Assembly (NCBI RefSeq): GCF_900105475.1
Contig: NZ_LT629777.1
Coordinates: 1,984,001 to 2,048,000 of the forward strand
Direction of reading: 5' to 3'
Length of the DNA stretch: 64,000 bases
Source: Pseudomonas asplenii
GTDB lineage: Bacteria; Pseudomonadota; Gammaproteobacteria; Pseudomonadales; Pseudomonadaceae
Shown here in pieces: positions 15,093-26,888 of this stretch (positions are counted from its first letter, which is position 1; every line of letters starts with the position of its first letter). The notes under the pieces are model-generated. The model was not told the DNA's origin. It searched no databases and was given only the letters and a program-made list of their open reading frames with translations. The translations under genes were made by a program, and so were the position numbers.

Positions 15093-16817
15093 ATGGCCGC
15101 TGCAATCAGCCTGGCGCCGCTGCGCAAATCGACCTCGACCGTCAGGCGCGGTGACTGGGGCGATCGCCTGTTCGTGGTCGGCGGCAAGCTGCTCTGGCTC
15201 TGCCTGCTGGGTGTCGCGGTGCTATTGCCGCTGTTGGCGATCTTCTGGCGTGGCTTGAGCAGCGAAGCCGGGCAGGGCGGCGGCTGGCTCGCCGCACGGG
15301 AATTGCTGGGCAGCGACAATTTCCACTGGCTGCTGGGCAACAGCCTGAAAGTATCCTTGAGCGTTGCGGCGATTGTCGTACCGCTGGCCTATCTGTTTGC
15401 CTACGCCCTGCAACGCACGCTGATTCCCGGAAAGCCCCTCTGGCGCGGCCTGTCCTTGCTGCCGTTGATGGCCCCCTCGATGCTGCCGGGGATCGCCCTG
15501 GTCTACCTGTTCGGCAACCAGGGCCTGCTGCGCGGATGGCTGGCGGAGAATATCTATGGCTTCTGGGGCATCGTCGTCGGCGAAGTCATCTACACCTTTC
15601 CCCATGCGCTGATGATCCTGTTGTCGGCGCTGTCCCTGGCCGATGCCCGGCTGTTCGACGCGGCCTCGAGCATGGGCGCCAGTCCATGGAAGGCCTATCG
15701 CAGCATCACCTGGCCGGCCACCCGGCAAGCGGTGTTCGCCGCCTTGTGTTTGGTGTTCACCCTGACCATCACTGATTTCGGTGTGCCGGTGGTGGTGGGT
15801 GGCGATTACCAGGTGCTGGCGCTGGAAGCCTACAAGGCGGTGGTCGGCCAACAACAGTTCGGCCGTGGTGCGCTGATCGGCATGATCCTGCTGCTGCCGG
15901 CGCTGTTCAGCTTTGCCGTCGATGCCTGGCTGCGCCGGCGCCAGGGCGAGGCGATGACGGGTCGGGCCCAGGTGTTCCAGCCGGTGCGCTGCCGATCGCG
16001 GGATGCCTGCTACCTGGTGATTGTCCTGCTGGTCTGCGCCGCGTTGCTGCTGGTGTTTGGCATGGCGGTGTATTCGTCGCTGGTGAAATTCTGGCCATAC
16101 AACCTGTCGTTGTCCTTGAGCCATTACCGCTTCGACGAGACGGCGGGCGGCGGCTGGCTGGCCTATCGCAATAGCCTGACCCTGGCGCTGTGTACGGCGT
16201 TGGTCGGCAGCCTGCTGATCTTCACCGGCGCCTACCTGATGGAAAAGACTCGCGGTCAGCGCGGCCTGAACCGGGTGCTGCGTCTGCTCAGTTTTGTGCC
16301 GATGGCGGTACCCGGCCTGGTCCTGGGGTTGGGCTATGTGTTCTTTTTCAACCTCGGCGGCAACCCGCTGCATGTGTTCTACGGGAGCATGACGCTCTTG
16401 GTGGTGTGCACGATCGCGCACTACCTGACCACCGCACAGATGACCGCGACCACTGCCCTGCGCCAGCTCGACAGTGAGTTCGAGGCCGCCGCGCTGTCGC
16501 TGAAGACGCCGTTGTACCGCCACTACCTGCGGGTCACGGTGCCGATCTGCCTGCCGGCCCTGCTGGACATCATCCGCTACCTGTTCGTCTCGGCGATGAC
16601 CACGGTTTCGGCGGCGATCTTCCTCTACAGCCCCGACACCCTCCTCGCGGCGGTGGCAGTGCTGAACATGGACGACGCCGGCAATGTCGGCGGCGCAGCG
16701 GCCATGTCGACCCTGATCCTGTTCACCTCGGCGGGCGTGTCGCTGCTGCTGGCCTGGGCCTCGCGCGGTTTGCTGCAGCGTACCCAGGCCTGGCGACAGA
16801 CCACGCCCGGCCATTGA
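15093..16817 (+). CDS. ABC importer permease, fused double-domain, putative 2-aminoethylphosphonate type
   Basis: A 574-residue inner-membrane protein with about twelve hydrophobic helices, built from two concatenated binding-protein-dependent permease domains. Each domain carries an EAA-type coupling loop: DAASSMGASPWKAYRSITWP in the first half and AAALSLKTPLYRHYLRVTVP in the second. This fused arrangement is shared by FbpB-like and PhnU-like permeases. The ATG at 15093 follows the ATPase stop (15089-15091) with one base between, so translation is coupled. The upstream in-frame extension from 14790 overlaps the ATPase and is rejected. Confidence 0.87.
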   Translation: MAAAISLAPLRKSTSTVRRGDWGDRLFVVGGKLLWLCLLGVAVLLPLLAIFWRGLSSEAGQGGGWLAARELLGSDNFHWLLGNSLKVSLSVAAIVVPLAYLFAYALQRTLIPGKPLWRGLSLLPLMAPSMLPGIALVYLFGNQGLLRGWLAENIYGFWGIVVGEVIYTFPHALMILLSALSLADARLFDAASSMGASPWKAYRSITWPATRQAVFAALCLVFTLTITDFGVPVVVGGDYQVLALEAYKAVVGQQQFGRGALIGMILLLPALFSFAVDAWLRRRQGEAMTGRAQVFQPVRCRSRDACYLVIVLLVCAALLLVFGMAVYSSLVKFWPYNLSLSLSHYRFDETAGGGWLAYRNSLTLALCTALVGSLLIFTGAYLMEKTRGQRGLNRVLRLLSFVPMAVPGLVLGLGYVFFFNLGGNPLHVFYGSMTLLVVCTIAHYLTTAQMTATTALRQLDSEFEAAALSLKTPLYRHYLRVTVPICLPALLDIIRYLFVSAMTTVSAAIFLYSPDTLLAAVAVLNMDDAGNVGGAAAMSTLILFTSAGVSLLLAWASRGLLQRTQAWRQTTPGH

Positions 16818-16870
16818 TCTGCCCACAACACCTGCCTGAACCACAGCCACATAACCCAAGGAACCGCATC

Positions 16871-17893
16871 ATGTTCAAGCCTTTGACTCTTGCCGCTGCC
16901 GTCCTCTCGCTGTTCAGCCTGAATGCCTTTGCAGCAAAAACCGAACTGACCGTCTATACCGCCCTCGAAGCCGAGCAGCTCAAGAGCTACCAGGATGCCT
17001 TCGAGAAGGCCAACCCGGATATCGGCATCAAGTGGGTGCGCGACTCCACCGGCATCATCACCGCCAAGCTGTTGGCCGAGAAGGCCCGGCCACAGGCGGA
17101 TGCGGTGTGGGGGCTGGCCGCGTCGAGCCTGGCGATCCTCGACCAGCAGGGCATGTTGCAGCCCTACGCACCCAAGGACCTGGGCAAGATCGGTGGCAAC
17201 TACCGCGATTCGGCCAATCCTCCGGCCTGGGTCGGCATGGACGTCTGGGCCGCCACCATCTGCTTTAACACCGTCGAAGCCGAGAAGCAGCACCTGAGCA
17301 AGCCGGTGAGCTGGCAGGACCTGACCAAGCCCGAGTACAAGGGCAAGATCGTCATGCCCAACCCGGCTTCGTCCGGCACCGGTTTCCTTGATGTCAGCGC
17401 CTGGTTGCAGACCTTCGGCGAGAAGCAGGGCTGGCAGTACATGGATGACCTGCACCAGAACATCGGCCAGTACGTCCACTCCGGCTCCAAGCCGTGCAAG
17501 CTGGCGGCGGCGGGTGAGTTCCCGATCGGCATCTCCTTCGAGTATCCGGCAGTGCAGCTCAAGCGCCAGGGCGCGCCGCTGGACATCATTCTGCCGAAGG
17601 AAGGGTTGGGCTGGGAGATCGAGGCGACTGCGGTGATCAAGGGGACAGCGCATGAAGAGGCGGCGAAGAAGTTGGCCGACTTCTCCGCAAGTCCTGCGGC
17701 GATGCAGTTGTACAAGGAAAACTTTGCCGTGCTGGCCCAGCCGGGCATCGCCAAGCCGCAGACCGAACTGCCGGCCGACTACGAGCAGCGTCTGATCAAG
17801 AACGATTTCGCCTGGGCCTCGACGCACCGCGACGAAATCCTCGCCGAGTGGCGCAAGCGTTATGACGGCAAGTCGGAGAAGGTTGCCCAGTAA
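16871..17893 (+). CDS. ABC importer periplasmic binding protein, putative 2-aminoethylphosphonate type
   Basis: A 340-residue periplasmic solute-binding protein. The signal peptide is residues 1 to about 21 (basic start, hydrophobic core LAAAVLSLFSLNAF, cleavage near AFA-A). The mature part starts with TELTVYTALEAEQL, like the FbpA/PhnS group of ligand-binding proteins. The IVMPNPASSGTGFLDVSAW segment is the hinge region typical of this family. An AAGGAACC ribosome binding site lies just upstream of the ATG. It is the third gene of the importer; a 270-base repeat-containing gap separates it from the catabolic pair. The ligand is inferred from context, not read from the binding site. Confidence 0.85.
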   Translation: MFKPLTLAAAVLSLFSLNAFAAKTELTVYTALEAEQLKSYQDAFEKANPDIGIKWVRDSTGIITAKLLAEKARPQADAVWGLAASSLAILDQQGMLQPYAPKDLGKIGGNYRDSANPPAWVGMDVWAATICFNTVEAEKQHLSKPVSWQDLTKPEYKGKIVMPNPASSGTGFLDVSAWLQTFGEKQGWQYMDDLHQNIGQYVHSGSKPCKLAAAGEFPIGISFEYPAVQLKRQGAPLDIILPKEGLGWEIEATAVIKGTAHEEAAKKLADFSASPAAMQLYKENFAVLAQPGIAKPQTELPADYEQRLIKNDFAWASTHRDEILAEWRKRYDGKSEKVAQ

Positions 17894-17914
17894 TCCAACC
17901 GGCTGCACACCAAC

Positions 17915-18065
17915 CCTGTGGCGAGCGGGCTTGTCGGAACGCCGCCCCCCGCGCTCGGCGGCGTAGCCGTCGTAAATCCAGTGACCTGATGCTGTCTGAC
18001 ACAACCGGGTTGCTGGCTTCAGGGGCGCGGTGCGCCCCAGCGCGGGCGAACCCGCTCGCCACAGG
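17915..18065. repeat. BIME-like palindromic element between importer and oxidase genes
   Basis: Perfect 15-base outer arms CCTGTGGCGAGCGGG (17915-17929) and CCCGCTCGCCACAGG (18051-18065) enclose about 120 bases. An internal perfect hairpin GGGGCGC-GGT-GCGCCCC is at 18022-18038. This is the structure of a bacterial interspersed mosaic element made of paired REPs. The whole 17894-18163 gap holds no other feature that I can see. The element could attenuate or stabilise the importer transcript. Confidence 0.8.
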
Positions 18066-18163
18066 TTTCGATCGTTCCCCGAGCTCGGCGTCCGCTCTGG
18101 TGACGTGCAGCGTCAAGGGCTGCCGGGGAAACGATCAACATAACCATTGCTTCAGGACCCTTC

Positions 18164-19303
18164 ATGACCCCTCACAGCGATATTCTCATCGTCGGCGCCG
18201 GCATCCTCGGCCTGTCCCATGCCTACGCGGCCGCTCGCCGTGGCCTCAAGGTCAGGGTCTTCGAACGCAGCGCCACGCCCCTGGGCGCGTCGATCCGCAA
18301 TTTCGGCCAGGCGCTGGTCACCGGCCAGCCGCCGGGTGTCATGCTCGACCTGGCCCGCGCCAGCCGCGAAATCTGGAGCCACTGGTCGCAGCAGGCCGGT
18401 TTCGAACTCAAGCGCCACGGCAGTTTCCTCTTCGCCCGCAGTGAAGCCGAGGAGCATCTGCTGGAAGCCTTCTGCGCCGGCCGGGCGCGGGAGCATGGCT
18501 ACCGGGTAAAACTGTTGCAGGGCCGGGCCCTGGCGGACTTGCACGGCGGCCAGTTCAGCCATCACCGCGCCGCCTTGCATGGCCTGGACGACCAGCAACT
18601 GTATTCCCGCGAGGCGATACTCACCCTGATCGATTACCTGCGCCGTGAACTGGGCGTCGAGTTCCACTTCTCGACCCTGGTCCGCGAAGTCACCCCCGGC
18701 CAGTTGCACAGCACCGCCGGAACCTTTCGCGGCGAACGCATCGTGGTCTGCTCGGGGCACGATTACCAGACCCTGCTGGCCGAGTCGCTGGCGACTCTGC
18801 AGGCGAGTATCTGCCGCCTACAGATGCTCCGCGCCCGTCCGCTGTTGAGCGGGCTGAACCTGCAACATGCGGTGCTGACCGGCTTGAGCTGTGTGCACTA
18901 CGGCGCTTTCGCCGACCTGCCGGAAGCGGCGGCGATCCGCGCGCAGATCCAGCGCGAAAGCCCGCATCTGCAGGACCATGGTATCCATCTGCTGATCAGC
19001 CCAACGCCCCACGGTGAGCTGATCATCGGCGATTCCCATCACTACGGCAGCGATCCTTCGCCGTTCAATGCCGAACAGGTGGATAACTGGATGCTGGAAC
19101 TGGCCGAGCACACCCTCGGCTGCAAGGTCCAGGTGCTGGAGCGTTGGCAGGGCGTCTACGGTGCCCGCGGGCCGGGGCCGTTTTCGTTCCTGCAGGCCGC
19201 GCCCGGCGTGCATGCCGCGCTGATGCACACCGGGGTCGGGATGAGCGTCGGTCCGGCGTTGGCCGAGGCCAATCTCGCCTCTCTGCTGGGAGAGTCGCGG
19301 TGA
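18164..19303 (+). CDS. FAD-dependent oxidoreductase of the phosphonate-locus family (DAO-like)
   Basis: A 379-residue flavoprotein of the D-amino-acid-oxidase/glycine-oxidase superfamily. The N-terminal dinucleotide fold is DILIVGAGILGLSHAYAA (GxGxxG at residues 10-15), and a C-terminal flavin-contact segment HTGVGMSVGPALAE lies near residue 358. The family with the TIGR03364 profile occurs next to phosphonate transport and degradation genes; members would oxidise an amine, for example an N-substituted aminoethylphosphonate, to an aldehyde or imine. The stop overlaps the GTG start of the HD gene as GTGA, so the two enzymes are made together. The exact substrate cannot be seen. Confidence 0.83.
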   Translation: MTPHSDILIVGAGILGLSHAYAAARRGLKVRVFERSATPLGASIRNFGQALVTGQPPGVMLDLARASREIWSHWSQQAGFELKRHGSFLFARSEAEEHLLEAFCAGRAREHGYRVKLLQGRALADLHGGQFSHHRAALHGLDDQQLYSREAILTLIDYLRRELGVEFHFSTLVREVTPGQLHSTAGTFRGERIVVCSGHDYQTLLAESLATLQASICRLQMLRARPLLSGLNLQHAVLTGLSCVHYGAFADLPEAAAIRAQIQRESPHLQDHGIHLLISPTPHGELIIGDSHHYGSDPSPFNAEQVDNWMLELAEHTLGCKVQVLERWQGVYGARGPGPFSFLQAAPGVHAALMHTGVGMSVGPALAEANLASLLGESR

Positions 19304-19896
19304 GCCGGGTCGAGCAGGTGCTGGACGAAGTCTTCGGCCTCTACCGGCAGTTTGGCAGCGCCGACTACATCGGCGAGCCGGTTTCGCAGTTGGAGCACAT
19401 GTCCCAGGCCGCGCAACGGGCGATGGCCGAAGGCTGCGACGACGAAGTGGTCCTTGCGGCGTTCTTCCACGATATCGGCCATATCTGTCCACGGCCGGAG
19501 TCAGCCGGGGAGAGCATGGGCGGTTATGGTGTTGTCAGCCACGAACGGCTGGGCGCGGACTATCTGCGCCGCCTGGGTTTCAGCGAACGCCTGGCGCGGC
19601 TGGTGGAGTATCACGTGCAGGCCAAGCGTTATCTGACACGGGTCGAGCCCGGGTACTACGAGCGCTTGAGCGAGGCCAGCCGGCGGACGCTGGAGTACCA
19701 GGGCGGCATGATGACCCGGCAGGAGGCCGCGGACTTCGCCCTGAACCCCCTCTGCGACTTGAGCCTGCGCATGCGTCAGTGGGACGAGCAGGCCAAGCAG
19801 TTGCACATTCCGGTCATCGATCTGCAGCTTTTGAGAAGCAAGGCGCAACATCTGCTGAGCCGATCCGTAATCGATACTACAACGCCTGGCGCTTAG
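19300..19896 (+). CDS. HD-domain protein of the PhnZ type (probable mixed-valent di-iron oxygenase)
   Basis: A 198-residue HD-fold protein. Candidate metal ligands are His33, His57-Asp58, His81, His105 and a late Asp in the DFALNPLCDLSL segment. The DYIGEPVSQLEH segment (residues 22-33) and Lys109 also fit the layout of PhnZ, the oxygenase that cleaves the C-P bond of 1-hydroxy-2-aminoethylphosphonate. The family is otherwise annotated as phosphonate-operon HDIG protein. The GTG start at 19300 overlaps the oxidase stop; the longer frame from 19144 runs through the oxidase gene and is rejected. No PhnY-like 2-oxoglutarate dioxygenase is next to it, so the source of a hydroxylated substrate is unclear. 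Confidence 0.82.
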   Translation: MSRVEQVLDEVFGLYRQFGSADYIGEPVSQLEHMSQAAQRAMAEGCDDEVVLAAFFHDIGHICPRPESAGESMGGYGVVSHERLGADYLRRLGFSERLARLVEYHVQAKRYLTRVEPGYYERLSEASRRTLEYQGGMMTRQEAADFALNPLCDLSLRMRQWDEQAKQLHIPVIDLQLLRSKAQHLLSRSVIDTTTPGA

Positions 19897-20084
19897 TTCT
19901 GACTCCGGCGGTGACGATTCAGGCGCCGAGTATTCGCGGGTCTTATAGTTGGCTTTTTCGCTGATTGGGAGAATGGTCGGGCACTCCAGCCATGCCCTCG
20001 GGCCTGTGGGGTGCGATGAAATTCAAGCCGGATCGTGTGTTCGGCCTGATGTGTTTTTCATAACTCGATCAATGAGGTATCCCG

Positions 20085-20243
20085 ATGGAAGACGTTAAGC
20101 AGCAAGACAATGCCCCGCAGGAAATGACCCTCGAAGAAACCATGGAGATCCGTGGGGCTGGTTGGGGCGCCGAGGGAGGAGAGGCGGTTAGAGATTTCTT
20201 CAGCGAACTGGGTCAGTTTTTCAAACATACGGTCAAGTCGTAA
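20085..20243 (+). CDS. System A: short peptide with a double-glycine-type leader, candidate precursor of the C39 exporter
   Basis: A 52-residue ORF with a GAGG ribosome binding site at 20074-20077. Residues 14-25 (MTLEETMEIRGA) fit the leader consensus read by C39 peptidases: hydrophobic at -12 (Met14), Thr at -11, Glu18 at -8, Ile22 at -4, and Gly24-Ala25 at -2 and -1. Position -7 is Thr rather than the usual Leu or Met. Cleavage after Ala25 would release a 27-residue product beginning GWGAEGG and continuing as an amphipathic helix (hydrophobics Ala34, Val35, Phe38, Phe39, Leu42, Phe45, Phe46, Val50). It has no Cys. A GG at residues 31-32 is a second, poorer cleavage option. The adaptor gene follows 51 bases later. 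Function (microcin, signal or modified peptide) is unknown. Confidence 0.75.
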   Translation: MEDVKQQDNAPQEMTLEETMEIRGAGWGAEGGEAVRDFFSELGQFFKHTVKS

Positions 20244-20294
20244 CCCTCACTGACAGGCCATGAGCTGAAGTGACAGCGTCAGGCGGGGCGGCTG

Positions 20295-21635
20295 ATGGCC
20301 TTGCTCCGTCTGGCGCCTGATCGACGGCGAACTTTCCCCTGTACGGATTTGCTCATGCTCGAATGGGGAACGGTCACCCCGAGATCAGCGCTCCAGCCCT
20401 TGCTGTTGGGCGGGGTACTCGGCCTCTTTGTCGTGGCGGTGCTGGTGCTGTTGTCGACGGGAAGTTACGCCAGGAAGGAAGACGTCCCCGGACGGGTCAT
20501 GACCCGCGATGTGGTCCGTATCGCCAGTGAAAAGGCGGCCCATGTCGACGAGATGCTGGTCGCTACCGGCGAGCCGGTCAAGCGTGGCCAGCCTTTGATC
20601 CGCCTGCACACGGTGAACCCGGAAAATATCGAGACTGACGGTGATCAGGCCCTCTCGCTCAGGAATATCGAGCGTTTGAACGAGCTGCTCGATGGCCTGG
20701 CGGCGCAGGAGAGCCAGGCCCGCTCCGCCCACACGGTCGAAAAAGACCTTCTACAACGCCAGTTGCAGCAACTGGATCAGGACCTGGCGCTCAACAGCAG
20801 GATCGGGCAATCGATCGAGCGTCGAGTTCGCGTTGCCCTGGAAGAAAGGCAGCGCCATGAACAATTGGCGGGTGAGGGCGCGGTTTCCGGTTCCGACCTG
20901 GACCGTGTGGTCGTCGTCCACCAATCCGCGTTGGAAGACCAGGCCGGCAACGAGTTGGCCAAGGTCAGTACGCAGCAGCGCCGCCTGGAGTTGCAGCAGC
21001 GCCTGAGCCAGGCGGAGCAGGACCAGGCGGCCCGCCTGGGGCAGTTTGGCCGCCAGCGCAACGAGTGGCTGGAGCGTCTGGAATCACTGGGCAAAAGCCA
21101 GGGTTATGTCCTGCTGTCTCCGGTGGACGGTATCGTCGATACGGTGGTGGTGTTTGCCGGTGGCAGGGTCGAGGGCGGCCAGCCGATCTTGCTGCTGCGT
21201 GTTGTCCAGCCTCGGCATCCGCCGCTTCGGGTTCTGCTGGACGTCGGCCCATCGGTCATTGGTTTCGCCACTCCCGGTACCGAGGTGACCTTGCGTTTCG
21301 ATGCTTTTCCTTATGAGCGCCATGGGGTTGTCAAAGGTTCCGTCGTCCACAGTTCCGCCAGTACCTACACGGCGGCGATTCCCGGTGCGAGCAACGATGA
21401 GTCGCGCGAGGTGCCCACCTATCTGGTGGAGGTGGAACCCGATTTCAGCGCCGCTCACGTTCGTATTCGCCCGGACTGGCTCAAGGACGGCATGACCGTC
21501 CGGGGTTCCTTGAGGCTGGAGCGCCTGAGCCTGATGGAATGGTTGTTCCTGCCGGTGCTCAAGGGCATCAAGCGTAATCCAGGCGTGTGGCCGGCGGCCC
21601 GAGCGGAGCCTGTAAGGGTGGACGAACCGGCATGA
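20295..21635 (+). CDS. System A: HlyD-like periplasmic adaptor (membrane fusion protein)
   Basis: A 446-residue adaptor for type I secretion of the CvaA/RaxA class. One membrane helix lies near residues 35-55 (LLLGGVLGLFVVAVLVLLS). It is followed by a lipoyl-like half-motif (VDEMLVATGEPVKRGQPLI, about residues 91-109), a long coiled coil (about 110-260, rich in Gln, Glu, Arg and Leu) and the second lipoyl half (SPVDGIVDTVVVFAGGRV). It would bridge the ABC exporter to an outer-membrane TolC-type channel, which is not encoded nearby. The stop overlaps the exporter start as ATGA. The ATG at 20295 has only a weak ribosome binding site, so the exact start is uncertain. Confidence 0.85.
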   Translation: MALLRLAPDRRRTFPCTDLLMLEWGTVTPRSALQPLLLGGVLGLFVVAVLVLLSTGSYARKEDVPGRVMTRDVVRIASEKAAHVDEMLVATGEPVKRGQPLIRLHTVNPENIETDGDQALSLRNIERLNELLDGLAAQESQARSAHTVEKDLLQRQLQQLDQDLALNSRIGQSIERRVRVALEERQRHEQLAGEGAVSGSDLDRVVVVHQSALEDQAGNELAKVSTQQRRLELQQRLSQAEQDQAARLGQFGRQRNEWLERLESLGKSQGYVLLSPVDGIVDTVVVFAGGRVEGGQPILLLRVVQPRHPPLRVLLDVGPSVIGFATPGTEVTLRFDAFPYERHGVVKGSVVHSSASTYTAAIPGASNDESREVPTYLVEVEPDFSAAHVRIRPDWLKDGMTVRGSLRLERLSLMEWLFLPVLKGIKRNPGVWPAARAEPVRVDEPA

Positions 21636-23791
21636 GTCAGCTCAAGGCGGTACTGCGCGATGCCCTGGCACGCTCCGCACAGAGGCTGCGCAAGCGGGTG
21701 CCGGTGATCCTGCAGGACGAAATGTCCGAGTGTGGCCTGGCATCGATTGCCATGGTTGCCGGTTATCACGGCAAACACCTGAGATTGCGCCAATTGCGCC
21801 GCGACTACAGCGTGGCGCGCGATGGGATGTCGCTGTTCCAGATCATCAAGGTGTCCGACGAACTGGGGTTTACCTGTCGACCCTTGAAAACCTTGCTCGA
21901 CGGGCTCAGGCAGTTGCGAACGCCATCGATCCTGTTCTGGAACAAGCGACATTTCGTGGTGCTGGAATCGGTGACCAGAACCGGCCTGCACGTGGTCGAC
22001 CCGGCTGTGGGAAGGCGTTTCTATACCTGGGAAGAAGCCTTGCCGATGTTCAGTGGCGTGGCATTGGAAATGCTCCCGGGCCTGGCCTTTACCCTCCAGA
22101 GCGGTCCCCGGCCTTCGGCATCGCTGGGCTTTGCCAGCCTGCTGCGCAAGAACCCCTGGCTCTTGCGTTACCTGATCCCCATGGGGCTGCTGTCGGTGGT
22201 CGGCTACCTGGGCGGGATTGCCGCGCCGAAGTTGTTTTCCCTGACGATCGATGAAGTCGTCGCCAAGAACGACGAGGATTTCCTGTACCTGATCCTGTAT
22301 GTCTTCGGCGGCATCTTTGTGTTCAAGACCATTGCCGCCTGGCTGCGGGCGCTGCTGGATGCGCAACTGCGGGTCGCGCTGACGCAGGATCTCTCGACCG
22401 GCGTCATTGCCCGCCTGTTACGGCTGCCGCTCGGTTACTTCGAGCGGCGTGCGCCGGGAGACATCCTGCGTCGCACCCAGGCGGCAGACAAGGTGTTCCT
22501 GCCGTTCACCTCGGGGTGGATGGACATCGGCATCGACAGCCTGTTCGGCCTGGTCTTCCTGATATTGATGGCACTGATCAATATCCAGTTGGCGGGGTTG
22601 TCCCTGGCGCTGTGCCTGCTGTTTTTTCTCTTCCGTGGTCTGACCTTGCCGGTGATGGAAAAGCGCCACAAGGCCTCGATCGAGGCCGAGACCCTGCGTA
22701 ATGTCACGCTGCTGGGCGTGCTGGGGGGGATCGAGTCGATGAAACTCCATCACTACGAAGCGACGAAACTGGCGACCTGGAGCAACCGGCAGGCGGACAC
22801 CGAAACGGCCCGCGCCGGGGTCCAGCGCATGCAGGCAATGAATCAGGTGATCCATGACGGCCTGGCCCATGGACACTCCCTGTTGGTCAGCGCGCTGGGG
22901 GCCCTCACTGTGTTGAACGGTGAGAACAGCGTCGGCGATCTGTTTGCCTTTGTGCTGTACAAGGACATGTTCATGGCGTGTGCCTTCAAGCTGGTGGAGG
23001 GCTACATGAACCTGCGACTGGTGCAGGTCGAGCTGGGTCGGCTGGATGACATCATCGACGAGCAGCCGGAGCCGTTCGAGTCCTGCGTCTACAGCAGCAG
23101 CCCGTTGGGGCAGCCCGATGCGATCCGTTCCATTCGCCTGCAGAACGCACGATTCTGCTACAGCTCGTTCGAGCGCCCGACCTTCGACAAGCTGGATTTC
23201 ACCCTGGAGGACCAGGGGGCGAAGATCGCCATCCTGGGACCTTCCGGTTGTGGCAAGAGCACCTTTCTGAAGGTCCTGGCCGGCTTTTATCCTCTGGATG
23301 AGGGGCGGTTCCGGATCAACGGCCAGGCGATGCGGCATTTCGGTCTGCGCCGTTATCGCCAGGGTGTGGCTTATGTCATGGCTCAGGGTGAAATCGTCGA
23401 CGGCAGCCTGGTGGACAATGTCGTGATGGATAATGAACTCGATGGCCCATGGTTGCAGGCGTGTGTCGAGCAGGTGGGGCTGCTCCCGTGCGTGCTGCAA
23501 TTGGCCAATGGTTTCAACACGCAACTGGGGTCGACGGGTATTCAACTGTCGTCCGGGCAGCGGCAGCGTCTGTTGATCGCCCGGGCTCTGTATCGGCGCC
23601 CTCAGTTGCTGCTGCTCGACGAGCCGACGGCGCATCTGGACCTGGCATCACGCGATGTGGTGATTGAAATGATTCGTCATCTGCCCTTGTCCTGCGTGGT
23701 GGTCACCCATGACCGGGAGGTGGCGCACGCCTGCACGACGGTGCTGCAGATGTGCGAAGGGCGCCTGGTACCGTTGGCGCAAGCATGCTGA
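21632..23791 (+). CDS. System A: peptidase-containing ABC transporter (C39 peptidase, membrane domain and ATPase)
   Basis: A 719-residue exporter that removes a leader peptide and secretes the rest. The N-terminal C39 cysteine peptidase has all catalytic residues: oxyanion Gln28 and Cys34 in LQDEMSECGLASIAMV, His107 in NKRHFVVLES, and Asp123 in HVVDPAVG. Six membrane helices follow (about residues 180-460), then an ATPase with Walker A GPSGCGKSTFL, signature LSSGQRQRLLIARAL and Walker B LLLLDEPTAHLDLA. The start at 21632 overlaps the adaptor stop. The intact peptidase implies a partner with a double-glycine-type leader; the 52-residue peptide upstream is the obvious candidate. Confidence 0.93.
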   Translation: MSQLKAVLRDALARSAQRLRKRVPVILQDEMSECGLASIAMVAGYHGKHLRLRQLRRDYSVARDGMSLFQIIKVSDELGFTCRPLKTLLDGLRQLRTPSILFWNKRHFVVLESVTRTGLHVVDPAVGRRFYTWEEALPMFSGVALEMLPGLAFTLQSGPRPSASLGFASLLRKNPWLLRYLIPMGLLSVVGYLGGIAAPKLFSLTIDEVVAKNDEDFLYLILYVFGGIFVFKTIAAWLRALLDAQLRVALTQDLSTGVIARLLRLPLGYFERRAPGDILRRTQAADKVFLPFTSGWMDIGIDSLFGLVFLILMALINIQLAGLSLALCLLFFLFRGLTLPVMEKRHKASIEAETLRNVTLLGVLGGIESMKLHHYEATKLATWSNRQADTETARAGVQRMQAMNQVIHDGLAHGHSLLVSALGALTVLNGENSVGDLFAFVLYKDMFMACAFKLVEGYMNLRLVQVELGRLDDIIDEQPEPFESCVYSSSPLGQPDAIRSIRLQNARFCYSSFERPTFDKLDFTLEDQGAKIAILGPSGCGKSTFLKVLAGFYPLDEGRFRINGQAMRHFGLRRYRQGVAYVMAQGEIVDGSLVDNVVMDNELDGPWLQACVEQVGLLPCVLQLANGFNTQLGSTGIQLSSGQRQRLLIARALYRRPQLLLLDEPTAHLDLASRDVVIEMIRHLPLSCVVVTHDREVAHACTTVLQMCEGRLVPLAQAC

Positions 23792-24792
23792 CCCGCGGTT
23801 TGAGTGGCCCGGTGAGGCGCTGGTTGTTCTGGGCGATGGTCAAGGCCCGGCTGCGCCGATACGGCTTGCTCGTCCTGGCCTGGTGCTTTCGGGTCAATGC
23901 GCTTCACGTTCTGCTGACGCTGCTGCCTGCGATGCTGATGAAATTGCCCCGGCGTTTGCGAGGGGTGGACTACCGTCGCAGCTGCCAGAATCTGCAGCTC
24001 TTCGATCTGGATGCCGATCGTTGTCGAGTCCTGGCCTGCCAGCACAGCGCGATCCAGTTTCAGCGTGGGCTTTACCAGCATCTCTACCGAAGCCATGAAC
24101 CGGAGCACCTGCGGGCCTGGATCCGGTCGATCCGCTGGAGCGACCCTGGCGATCACTGGCAACGCGGCGCCAGGCGTTCGACGATCATCGCTTTGCCGCA
24201 TTGCGGCGAGTACTGGATGGCCGTCGCCTGCGTCGTCGAGCGAACGAGCGCGCCGACACGGTTCATCATTCCGATCTGGAACTTCAAGGATCCGTTTACC
24301 CATGGATCGCTCAAGAACCTTGAAGGTCTCGGGCACGTGGTCGAGGTTCTGGACAGCAATGATCCGAGGAGCGCGCTGGCGATTGCCCGGGGCGTGAAAC
24401 GGGGTGATCAGGTGATCATTTTCTGCGATCTGCCGGTAAGTCTTGATGGTATTCAGTTTGGTGAGCCGATGAGTGGCCGCTTCTTCGGGCGCGATGCCCA
24501 GTTTGTCAAAGGTCCGCTGTTCCTGGCCGCGAAGCTGGGCTGTGATCTCTTGCTGGTGGGGCATCGAGTCTGCCTGGGACAGGTGGGAGAGCTACGGGTT
24601 ATCGAGCGGGTTTTCCGCGGTCCCATCGAGCAGATGCGGGCGCATTGGCTCAAGGCGCTGGAGGGTTTCATTCTCGAAGCCCCGCAAGACTGGTTGTACC
24701 TGCCGAGGATGGAGGCTTTTCATCATCGGCAATGGTCATCGAGCGAGAGGCGGCAAGCAGGTCGATCCGCTTCTGGCGTCCGCCCGGATTGA
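23785..24792 (+). CDS. System A: LpxL/HtrB-like lipid acyltransferase homologue
   Basis: A 335-residue protein of the lysophospholipid/lipid A acyltransferase superfamily, with an N-terminal hydrophobic segment (about residues 35-55) for membrane attachment. The block FCDLPVSLDGIQFGEP leads into GRFFGRDAQFVKGPLFLAAK, which is characteristic of LpxL-like enzymes (small-substrate pocket and acceptor loop). The catalytic His-x4-acid motif appears altered: LPHCGEYWM has His139 with Glu at +3 and Trp at +5, where Glu or Asp is expected. Its start overlaps the exporter stop by seven bases, so it is translationally coupled to secretion. It might acylate the peptide, alter lipid A for self-protection, or have lost acyl transfer; none of these can be decided here. 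Confidence 0.7.
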   Translation: MLTRGLSGPVRRWLFWAMVKARLRRYGLLVLAWCFRVNALHVLLTLLPAMLMKLPRRLRGVDYRRSCQNLQLFDLDADRCRVLACQHSAIQFQRGLYQHLYRSHEPEHLRAWIRSIRWSDPGDHWQRGARRSTIIALPHCGEYWMAVACVVERTSAPTRFIIPIWNFKDPFTHGSLKNLEGLGHVVEVLDSNDPRSALAIARGVKRGDQVIIFCDLPVSLDGIQFGEPMSGRFFGRDAQFVKGPLFLAAKLGCDLLLVGHRVCLGQVGELRVIERVFRGPIEQMRAHWLKALEGFILEAPQDWLYLPRMEAFHHRQWSSSERRQAGRSASGVRPD

Positions 24793-24933
24793 GCCGCGCC
24801 GGATTGCGAGAGGGCGTAGGGCGACGGCTCTCAGAGTCTGCCGGGGTTTCCCACGAGGCGCCGGGAGTTGTTGACTGGAGCACTCGCCTGCGATGGCTTT
24901 AGCCTGAAGCGACATTCACCGAAAGGAGTCGTC

Positions 24934-25485
24934 ATGCGTTACCTGAAAGCCATTGCCCAGGATCTGGGGCAAACCGGACAGGCCAATACCGTCCTGCTCA
25001 AGTTCTACAACGATATGCTCTGCCTGCCGGAACAACAGGTGGGTATTGCCGTGGCCGTCGATCATACGGGAGATGCCCTTGTTGATTTCGCGATGGCCGG
25101 CGACATTGACCTGGACGGCCGGTTTTCCCTGCGGGACCAGCATCTGTTGCGGGCATTCACGGATGTTTTCCTGCAACTGAACTGGTTCAACCAGGGTGGG
25201 AATGAACAGCGTTATCTCAAGATGCTGGCCGAAAATTATCACCACGATGGCTCGCCGAATGTCGTCAAGCTGGAGTTCCATGAGGATTGCACGGCTTCGG
25301 GGCCGCAGACGCTGGTTTACCGGGCTGCCGGGTATGACGGGGATAACGACGGCATTTTTGAATCCTTTACCAACAGTGACGTCGATGGCAACGGCATTGC
25401 CGATACAGCCGACAAGGAACTGATCCGGAGGCTGATCAAGAGCTTTCTGGCGTTTGACGCCTGGAGCACCAGACTCCGTTCTTGA
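24934..25485 (+). CDS. System A: EF-hand/dockerin-like calcium-binding protein of unknown function
   Basis: A 183-residue protein with a very good ribosome binding site (AAAGGAG, 24922-24928). Two calcium-loop segments are visible: DIDLDGRFSLRDQHLLRAF near residue 67, and a later pair DGDNDGIFE / DVDGNGIADTADKELIRRL near residues 145-177, the latter resembling dockerin-type loops. There is no signal peptide or double-glycine leader at the N-terminus (MRYLKAIAQDLG), and one cysteine lies in each half. It is 141 bases downstream of the acyltransferase and the last gene of the locus. A role as immunity protein, chaperone or cargo regulator is possible but unsupported. Confidence 0.65.
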   Translation: MRYLKAIAQDLGQTGQANTVLLKFYNDMLCLPEQQVGIAVAVDHTGDALVDFAMAGDIDLDGRFSLRDQHLLRAFTDVFLQLNWFNQGGNEQRYLKMLAENYHHDGSPNVVKLEFHEDCTASGPQTLVYRAAGYDGDNDGIFESFTNSDVDGNGIADTADKELIRRLIKSFLAFDAWSTRLRS

Positions 25486-25514: not shown

Positions 25515-26888
25515 TCAGCTTTCATCAAGCTTTTGCAGAAGCTTTTCCAGCTGTTCCTGGCGTTCGGTCTGGCTTAGTTTCGGCTGTGGGTTGAGCGACG
25601 ACCATTGCGGATGCGCTCTGGCCTTGTCCAGGGCTTGCGGCAGCTTGCCCTCGCGCCAGGACTTGTCCACAGGCGTTGCAACGGTAATGCTGTCCAGCGC
25701 CGCATGACCGCGCGCCTCCAAGGCTAGCAGCAGTTGCCGTTGGCGTAGTGCCAGCAGGCGTAGCACTCTGTCGTCGACGGTCAGTTCGCGTTTGCCCTTG
25801 AGCTTGCCGAGCAGGCGGCCGCCGTAGCCGCGTGCGGTCTGCAGGGCGCCGCCAGCGATGGCACCGGCCAGGGCGGCGGCGCCCAGGGTCAGGCCGCCGA
25901 CCAGCAGATCGACGCCAGCCCCCGCCGCCGCTCCGGCGGCAATTCCACCGCCGACCTTCACCCCCAACTGCTTGAGGGTTTCCGGGTTGAACAGATCGTC
26001 GCCCCAGCGGCCGTCGAGCAGTGGCAGATCGCTGGCTGCCGCGTCATTGGTACGAAATGCATAGAGTGTGAGCAGGGCCTCGACGCAACGTTGCTCGCGC
26101 TGGCGCACCGCCTGGCGCAGCTCGGCGATGGCACTGGTTTCGGCTGCCGCATCACCGGCCACCTGGCGTCGGCAGGCGGCGCAGTCGATCAAGAGCTCGG
26201 CGATCAGCCGTTGGGCGCTTTGCCGACGGGCCAGGCGTTGTGCTTCCAGATCGCGGACCAGTCGTTCCAACTGTGCTCGCGAACCTTCGAGCAGCAGTGC
26301 CAGGCTTTCATAGAGACGGCGTTCGCCGTCTTCCGGCGGCGCGACGCTGTCGAAGCGCACCAGGGCATGCAGCCCCAGGCGGGCCAGGGCTTCGCGCCAG
26401 TCGGGCTCGCGCTGGGCGGCGCTGCTGACGAAATTGAGCACCGGCAGCAGCGGTTTGCCGCAACTGGCGAGCACCGACAGTTCGTCGCGGTATTTGGCTA
26501 GCACCGGTTCGCGGGCATCGATCACATACAGCCCGGCATCCGAGGCCAAGAGCTGGCGCAGTACCTTGGCTTCCTGCTCGAAACGCTGGCGGGCTTCGCT
26601 GCCATCAAGGAAGCGACTGACCCGGGCCGGGCCATCGAGGCGTTCGCCGGGCCGGTCAAGACGTTCGAGGTAGTCGAGCAGGGCGATGGCATCTTCCAGG
26701 CCGGGCGTGTCGTACAGCTCCAGCAGCGGCTCGCCGTCGACTGACAACCGCGCCCCTTCGACATGGCGGGTGGTGCTGGGGCGGTGGGAGACTTCGCCAA
26801 AGCCGACGTCCCGGGTCAGGGTACGCAGCAGCGAGGTCTTGCCAACATTGGTGTGGCCGACCACGGCCAGTTTCAATGGTTTAGTCAT
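25515..26888 (-). CDS. Membrane-associated GTPase with DUF3482 domain
   Basis: A 457-residue protein whose N-terminal TRAFAC-type GTPase has G1 VVGHTNVGKTSLL near residue 9, G3 LYDTPGLED near residue 58 and a probable switch region RPSTTRHVEG. The C-terminal half includes long Ala/Leu/Arg helices and a Gly/Ala-rich hydrophobic segment (about residues 310-345) that could insert into the membrane. The family (DUF3482) is unassigned. Its start overlaps the end of the DUF2868 gene by 8 bases, and the two are usually neighbours, so they probably act together. It is convergent with the EF-hand gene, only 29 bases away. Confidence 0.8.
   Translation of the reverse strand: MTKPLKLAVVGHTNVGKTSLLRTLTRDVGFGEVSHRPSTTRHVEGARLSVDGEPLLELYDTPGLEDAIALLDYLERLDRPGERLDGPARVSRFLDGSEARQRFEQEAKVLRQLLASDAGLYVIDAREPVLAKYRDELSVLASCGKPLLPVLNFVSSAAQREPDWREALARLGLHALVRFDSVAPPEDGERRLYESLALLLEGSRAQLERLVRDLEAQRLARRQSAQRLIAELLIDCAACRRQVAGDAAAETSAIAELRQAVRQREQRCVEALLTLYAFRTNDAAASDLPLLDGRWGDDLFNPETLKQLGVKVGGGIAAGAAAGAGVDLLVGGLTLGAAALAGAIAGGALQTARGYGGRLLGKLKGKRELTVDDRVLRLLALRQRQLLLALEARGHAALDSITVATPVDKSWREGKLPQALDKARAHPQWSSLNPQPKLSQTERQEQLEKLLQKLDES

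Follow-up and report, generated by a model that had tools for sequence, protein, structure and literature searches.

Class II microcins and colicin V leave the cell through systems (CvaAB-TolC, MchEF) built from a double-glycine precursor, a C39 ATP-binding cassette (ABC) exporter, an HlyD adaptor and a TolC-type channel, and lipolanthines, goadvionins, lipoavitides and selidamides are ribosomal peptides clustered with an acyltransferase and often with an exporter. In the parts of the published accounts considered here, C39 exporters are described as cutting leaders that end in GG, GA or GS and exporting small peptides (PMC8277102), lipidated ribosomal peptides as being acylated by GNAT enzymes (PMC13060382, PMC9505594), and HlyC-type toxin-activating lysine acyltransferases as lying near Serratia microcin genes (PMC13101503). 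Here we analyse a locus in a 64,000-nucleotide stretch of Pseudomonas asplenii DNA (contig NZ_LT629777.1, positions 1,984,001 to 2,048,000; hereafter the window), which is part of a 6.53-Mb single-contig Pseudomonas genome. In the order precursor, HlyD adaptor, C39/ABC exporter, acyltransferase, it carries what we read, with a probability of roughly 0.55, as an accessory peptide-secretion cassette making a ribosomal lipopeptide. The sequences give good support for cleavage and export of the precursor. For the acyltransferase we infer acylation of the peptide: it is the only tailoring enzyme recognised and accompanies one and the same exporter clade in different genera, so that a role as peptide modifier is the simplest reading. 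The parts of the cassette are as follows.

20074..20078, + strand: Shine-Dalgarno-like GAGGT 5' of the precursor gene, six bases from the ATG (direct reading)
20085..20243, + strand: precursor gene, 52 amino acids (in homologues, leader near-invariant and core variable)
20085-20159, + strand: precursor leader, codons 1-25, ending in ...MTLEETMEIRGA
20160-20240, + strand: precursor core, codons 26-52, GWGAEGGEAVRDFFSELGQFFKHTVKS
20295..21635, + strand: HlyD-type membrane-fusion adaptor, 446 amino acids as called, possible start at 20355 (Pfam/TIGR matches)
21632..23791, + strand: C39 peptidase/ABC exporter, 719 amino acids (Peptidase_C39 E 9e-31, ABC_tran, ABC_membrane)
23785..24792, + strand: predicted LpxL/PatA-fold acyltransferase, 335 amino acids
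24199-24216, + strand: HCGEYW, residues 139-144 of the acyltransferase, in place of HX4(D/E)

A preliminary description of this DNA had placed five open reading frames (ORFs) here, namely these four genes and an EF-hand-like gene downstream, and all five were found at the positions it gave. The overlaps by which it had joined the adaptor, exporter and acyltransferase genes measure 4 bases (adaptor/exporter) and 7 bases (exporter/acyltransferase). Related loci are carried by P. fuscovaginae/asplenii, P. agarici and P. gingeri.

The precursor reads MEDVKQQDNAPQEMTLEETMEIRGA (leader) followed by the core given above. A search that covered some 5.8 billion proteins gave eight clusters matching it, one of them the window's own and the other seven with E values from 1e-21 to 7e-8; by the strength of these matches, far above chance, the 52-codon ORF is confirmed as a real gene. 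It had been called unannotated; close relatives are already present in NCBI as hypothetical proteins. In an alignment of the homologues the leader is nearly constant and the core varies, which bears out the proposal of a C39-type leader ending in Gly-Ala. Between the window and the P. gingeri locus L018 (loci are numbered L and genomes G), the 25 leader codons differ by 3 synonymous and 2 non-synonymous changes, and the 27 core codons by 10.8 synonymous and 17.2 non-synonymous changes. All Pseudomonas precursors read have Gly at leader position -2, Gly, Ala or Ser at -1, Ile or Val at -4 and Glu or Asp at -8.

All 13 cassette genomes have a precursor adjacent to the exporter. A profile search with 13 precursors gave one strong match (E <=3e-12) in 12 of the 13, each next to the exporter; as the profile was built partly from the loci tested, its new information is that it detected no second copy. 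The thirteenth genome, G055, holds two cassettes, neither of them at the usual site: L027 (G055:C39) and L028 (G055:C57). The exporter gene of L027 is split between two frames, with no precursor found beside it, and the L028 exporter is accompanied by a different precursor, divergently placed, with a GG leader (MQEITIKETQTVFGG...). The precursors of L045 and of Salmonella (see below) were located by listing short frames. As the preliminary description had anticipated, the small ORF is kept at orthologous Pseudomonas loci with positions -1, -2, -4 and -8 conserved; the exceptions are the decayed L027 and the precursor of an E. coli plasmid, which has Ala instead of Glu or Asp at -8.

The exporter contains the complete C39 triad expected of it, Cys34, His107 and Asp123, within the Peptidase_C39 match, followed by Walker A from residue 536, the ABC signature from 639 and the Walker B region from 663. 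A triad-bearing domain with an adjacent short precursor, whose leader belongs to the GG, GA or GS type and keeps positions -4, -7/-8 and -12, marks the locus as a probable C39 export system. The adaptor, likewise proposed before, scored above the Pfam cut-off for HlyD_3, slightly below that for HlyD_D23 and below that for type_I_hlyD (E 1e-31). Most relatives align from its codons 12-21 and the plasmid proteins begin equivalently, so that its start may lie later, for example at Met21 (20355). An HlyD gene adjoins the exporter in the window and in every other cassette read. Among the 16 Pseudomonas loci examined, a gene for a NodT-type channel (NodT/OEP) lies 3' of the acyltransferase in 11 (L020-L028, L045, L046); none was present in the window cassette or in its four nearest relatives, L016-L019, and for the window the channel is presumably supplied from elsewhere in the genome. 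The C39 domain would recognise the precursor through its MTLEETMEIRGA leader and cut after Gly-Ala, and the peptide would leave the cell by way of the ABC exporter, with the HlyD adaptor and a TolC/NodT-type channel completing the route.

Assignment to the NHLP bacteriocin system was rejected, the NHLM_micro_ABC1 equivalog model scoring 385 bits against a cut-off of 853. The genome has a second large C39-family match, L003 (G000:C1 4161443), which reads DSGIAS at the usual motif and has no Cys; it resembles in this the non-cleaving C39-like exporters.

The acyltransferase was found in 11 of 199 genomes of the same genus, and these 11 are also the ones with an exporter sharing at least 59% identity with that of the window. 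The next exporters among the matches listed (E limit 1e-100) are 33-35% identical and belong to four other genomes, all without the acyltransferase. Among 398 genomes, 13 have the acyltransferase. In a tree of 19 exporters, the 12 from acyltransferase loci are separated by a 100/100 branch from seven of loci without the enzyme, including CvaB, to which the E. coli cassette member is about 28% identical; this split is limited by long branches and by the number of outgroups, seven, of which four are plasmid exporters outside the ten plasmid records described below and three come from Pseudomonas genomes without an acyltransferase match. Of the 16 Pseudomonas loci, 10 are represented in the tree; L003, a very long row that had likewise fallen outside, was removed. 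Microcin C39/HlyD cassettes function without an acyltransferase (CvaB, MchF), and the product could by that precedent be an unmodified signal or a class II microcin-type bacteriocin, the acyltransferase being incidental; given the co-occurrence of acyltransferase and exporter in the sample and their shared exporter clade, we regard this as very improbable.

The same unit occurs in enterobacteria. A tblastn search of 72,556 plasmids gave matches in ten records, nine of E. coli and one of Salmonella. The two plasmids read (L048, L049) have the same order of precursor(s), HlyD, C39 and acyltransferase, the acyltransferases being 19% (E. coli) and 23% (Salmonella) identical to that of the window, with one double-glycine precursor in the E. 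coli cassette and two in that of Salmonella. Among 5426 complete E. coli genomes, 28 matched: in seven, on plasmids, the match spans 80% or more of the query, and the other 21 are chromosomes with partial matches, the eight listed spanning 14% of it (the acyltransferase part). Relatives in Yersinia appeared in a search in which only 8000 candidates were scored. No further acyltransferase member was found in samples of 369 and 274 genomes of the class, samples too thin to bound the range since the E. coli and Yersinia proteins exist; 73 pattern matches in viral contigs included no relative. One distant class member, in G537 (1e-8), is a longer protein with an ordinary LpxL-type HFGNIE in another gene neighbourhood and was not counted. 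The two precursors of the Salmonella enterica subsp. salamae plasmid (L049, 4713-5111) differ from each other, stand in tandem and have GG leaders and Gly/Ala-rich hydrophobic cores; two-peptide bacteriocins carry two precursors in a row. These plasmid versions, like the channel gene of sister loci and the altered catalytic motif described next, are additions to the preliminary description.

LpxL/PatA enzymes transfer acyl chains to lipids. The fold predicted for the cassette enzyme is intact and is that of LpxM/PatA (matched with VIA-align), and its earlier description as an LpxL-like acyltransferase tied to the exporter is supported. It shares 12-18% identity over the aligned part with LpxL/LpxM and mycobacterial PatA, and differs from them in its link to peptide export and in its motif: instead of HX4(D/E), all 27 aligned members have HxGEYW, with Trp in place of the acid. 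Alignment A2 excludes P0009, the fragment P0017 and P0031. HxG(E/D)YW is also present in the distant members read, which do not include P0046 and P0047; the exception is the short P0045, with HSGEYL. Pfam Lip_A_acyltrans appeared at E <=1 in six of 13 members, and below cut-off in both members whose individual tables showed it.

The loss of the catalytic acid in 27 of 27 members could mean that the protein is catalytically inactive, or at least does not acylate, and acts as a chaperone in the membrane that passes the precursor to the exporter. The His, the Gly, the Glu/Asp at +3, the Tyr, the Trp and the Asp of a DLP/DIP motif are all kept at 19-23% identity, and the predicted fold is intact; such conservation favours a changed active site over a decaying one, and makes the chaperone role improbable. 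Alternatively, the enzyme could be an immunity or envelope-adaptation factor that acylates a lipid of the producer and so shields the cell from an unmodified membrane-active peptide. Known enzymes of this fold are lipid-acting, and no shared immunity-gene candidate was recognised in the loci, each of which may have an unrelated immunity gene of its own. Set against this are the unlike motif, the three PF03279 proteins that the genome holds besides the cassette enzyme, and the position of the acyltransferase beside a peptide exporter in the loci read, bar a shortened E. coli chromosomal copy. We consider such a role unlikely, though less so than that of a chaperone; plain lipid A modification is likewise less likely, given the different motif and linkage and the three PF03279 proteins already in the genome.

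The cores, too, count in favour of a lipopeptide. As had been proposed, the window core is a 27-residue, cysteine-free, amphipathic peptide. Among 13 cores ending in Ser, the helical amphipathicity of 12 was reached by a fraction of 0.00 (<0.5%) of 500 shuffles and that of L045 by 0.03; the net charge of the 13 lies between 0 and -2. Of 18 distinct Pseudomonas-type precursors, all but L028 have Ser as their C-terminal residue (17), and no other tailoring gene common to the cassette loci read was recognised. We propose that before export the dedicated LpxL/PatA-fold enzyme, rebuilt for a peptide substrate, acylates the core with a fatty acid. The most likely target would be a hydroxyl or amine close to the C-terminal end, and in Pseudomonas the best candidate site is the C-terminal Ser. 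The product would be a mildly acidic amphipathic helix with a lipid tail, membrane-active on competitors or acting as a surfactant.

Several points weigh against this proposal. The cores of L028 and of the three enterobacterial precursors lack the C-terminal Ser and are not amphipathic (47-81% of shuffles reach their values), so that the precursors do not all share one conserved acylation site and the enterobacterial site may differ. An acyltransferase copy on an E. coli chromosome (L051, 8006-8677), shortened and near tRNA-Sec and an integrase, stands alone without an exporter. With Trp at the place of the acid of HX4(D/E), activity of the enzyme is not certain, and it could act on lipid instead.

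The surroundings of the window cassette comprise the following genes.

19282..19896, + strand: phosphonate-degradation HD-domain oxygenase (TIGR03276), left flank of the insertion site
24934..25485, + strand: EF-hand-like protein, 183 amino acids, a neighbour outside the core unit
25515..26888, - strand: GTPase with DUF3482, right flank of the insertion site

The HD oxygenase is present in 38 of 59 genomes searched. Of its 30 loci read, four have the cassette and 26 have the GTPase next, with the EF-hand gene between oxygenase and GTPase in seven of these 26. In raw counts, the EF-hand gene accompanies eight of 11 cassettes at this site (the window, L017, L018, L020, L022-L024 and L046) and is absent beside the other three (L016, L019, L021), as it is beside five Pseudomonas cassettes with no HD neighbour seen (L025-L028, L045). 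Its family occurs in 37 of 199 genomes, eight among the 11 cassette genomes and 29 without a cassette. The preliminary description had counted the EF-hand protein as a component of the system; this was given up, since 29 of 37 carrier genomes lack the cassette and the gene is missing from cassettes elsewhere. Counting toward a tie, eight of 11 site cassettes have the gene compared with seven of 26 cassette-free sites, and an optional association is possible. Judged by the occupancy of the site, the cassette is an insertion at a conserved position; we regard the EF-hand gene as an independent occupant of that position, at which it is enriched. The EF-hand-like family measures about 180 residues, with a best Pfam match at E 0.045 and five matches clustered in G099. 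Left of the cassette (16814-19896) lie genes for a putative 2-aminoethylphosphonate-binding protein, a TIGR03364 FAD oxidoreductase and the phosphonate-degradation HD oxygenase.

Compared with class II microcin systems, the cassette adds an acyltransferase and has no separate immunity gene that was recognised, and in Pseudomonas its cores take the form of short amphipathic helices of mildly acidic character. It differs from the lipidated ribosomal peptides named at the outset in that its enzyme is not of the GNAT kind, the predicted fold being that of LpxM/PatA, and in having no lanthionine synthetase in the cassette. The HlyC type also places an acyltransferase beside a microcin-type cluster and, by its description as far as considered here, is another family. 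The pairing of a C39 exporter with an LpxL/PatA-fold acyltransferase was not described in the titles and abstract openings of the open-licence PMC papers that the searches listed; for some searches the matching papers far outnumbered those listed, and one was too broad to be informative. As the lipidated ribosomal peptides described in the accounts considered use GNAT enzymes, acylation by this fold would be a new route. Tentatively, and at less than even odds, we suggest a new class of ribosomal lipopeptide, in which a double-glycine peptide receives its acyl group from an HxG(E/D)YW enzyme of LpxL/PatA fold, with the C-terminal Ser as the probable site in Pseudomonas, so that a lipid A/phosphatidylinositol mannoside scaffold would have been turned to peptide lipidation in a system common to Pseudomonas and enterobacterial plasmids.

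If this is correct, ribosomal peptides would be fatty-acylated by a second, unrelated enzyme family, and a C39 exporter adjoining an HxGEYW acyltransferase would provide a marker for genome mining. It would also raise the question why plasmids of E. coli and Salmonella bear the precursor-HlyD-C39-acyltransferase unit. Pseudomonas-type bacteria are known for non-ribosomal lipopeptides; such producers could then also make gene-encoded ones, with a variable core behind a fixed leader.

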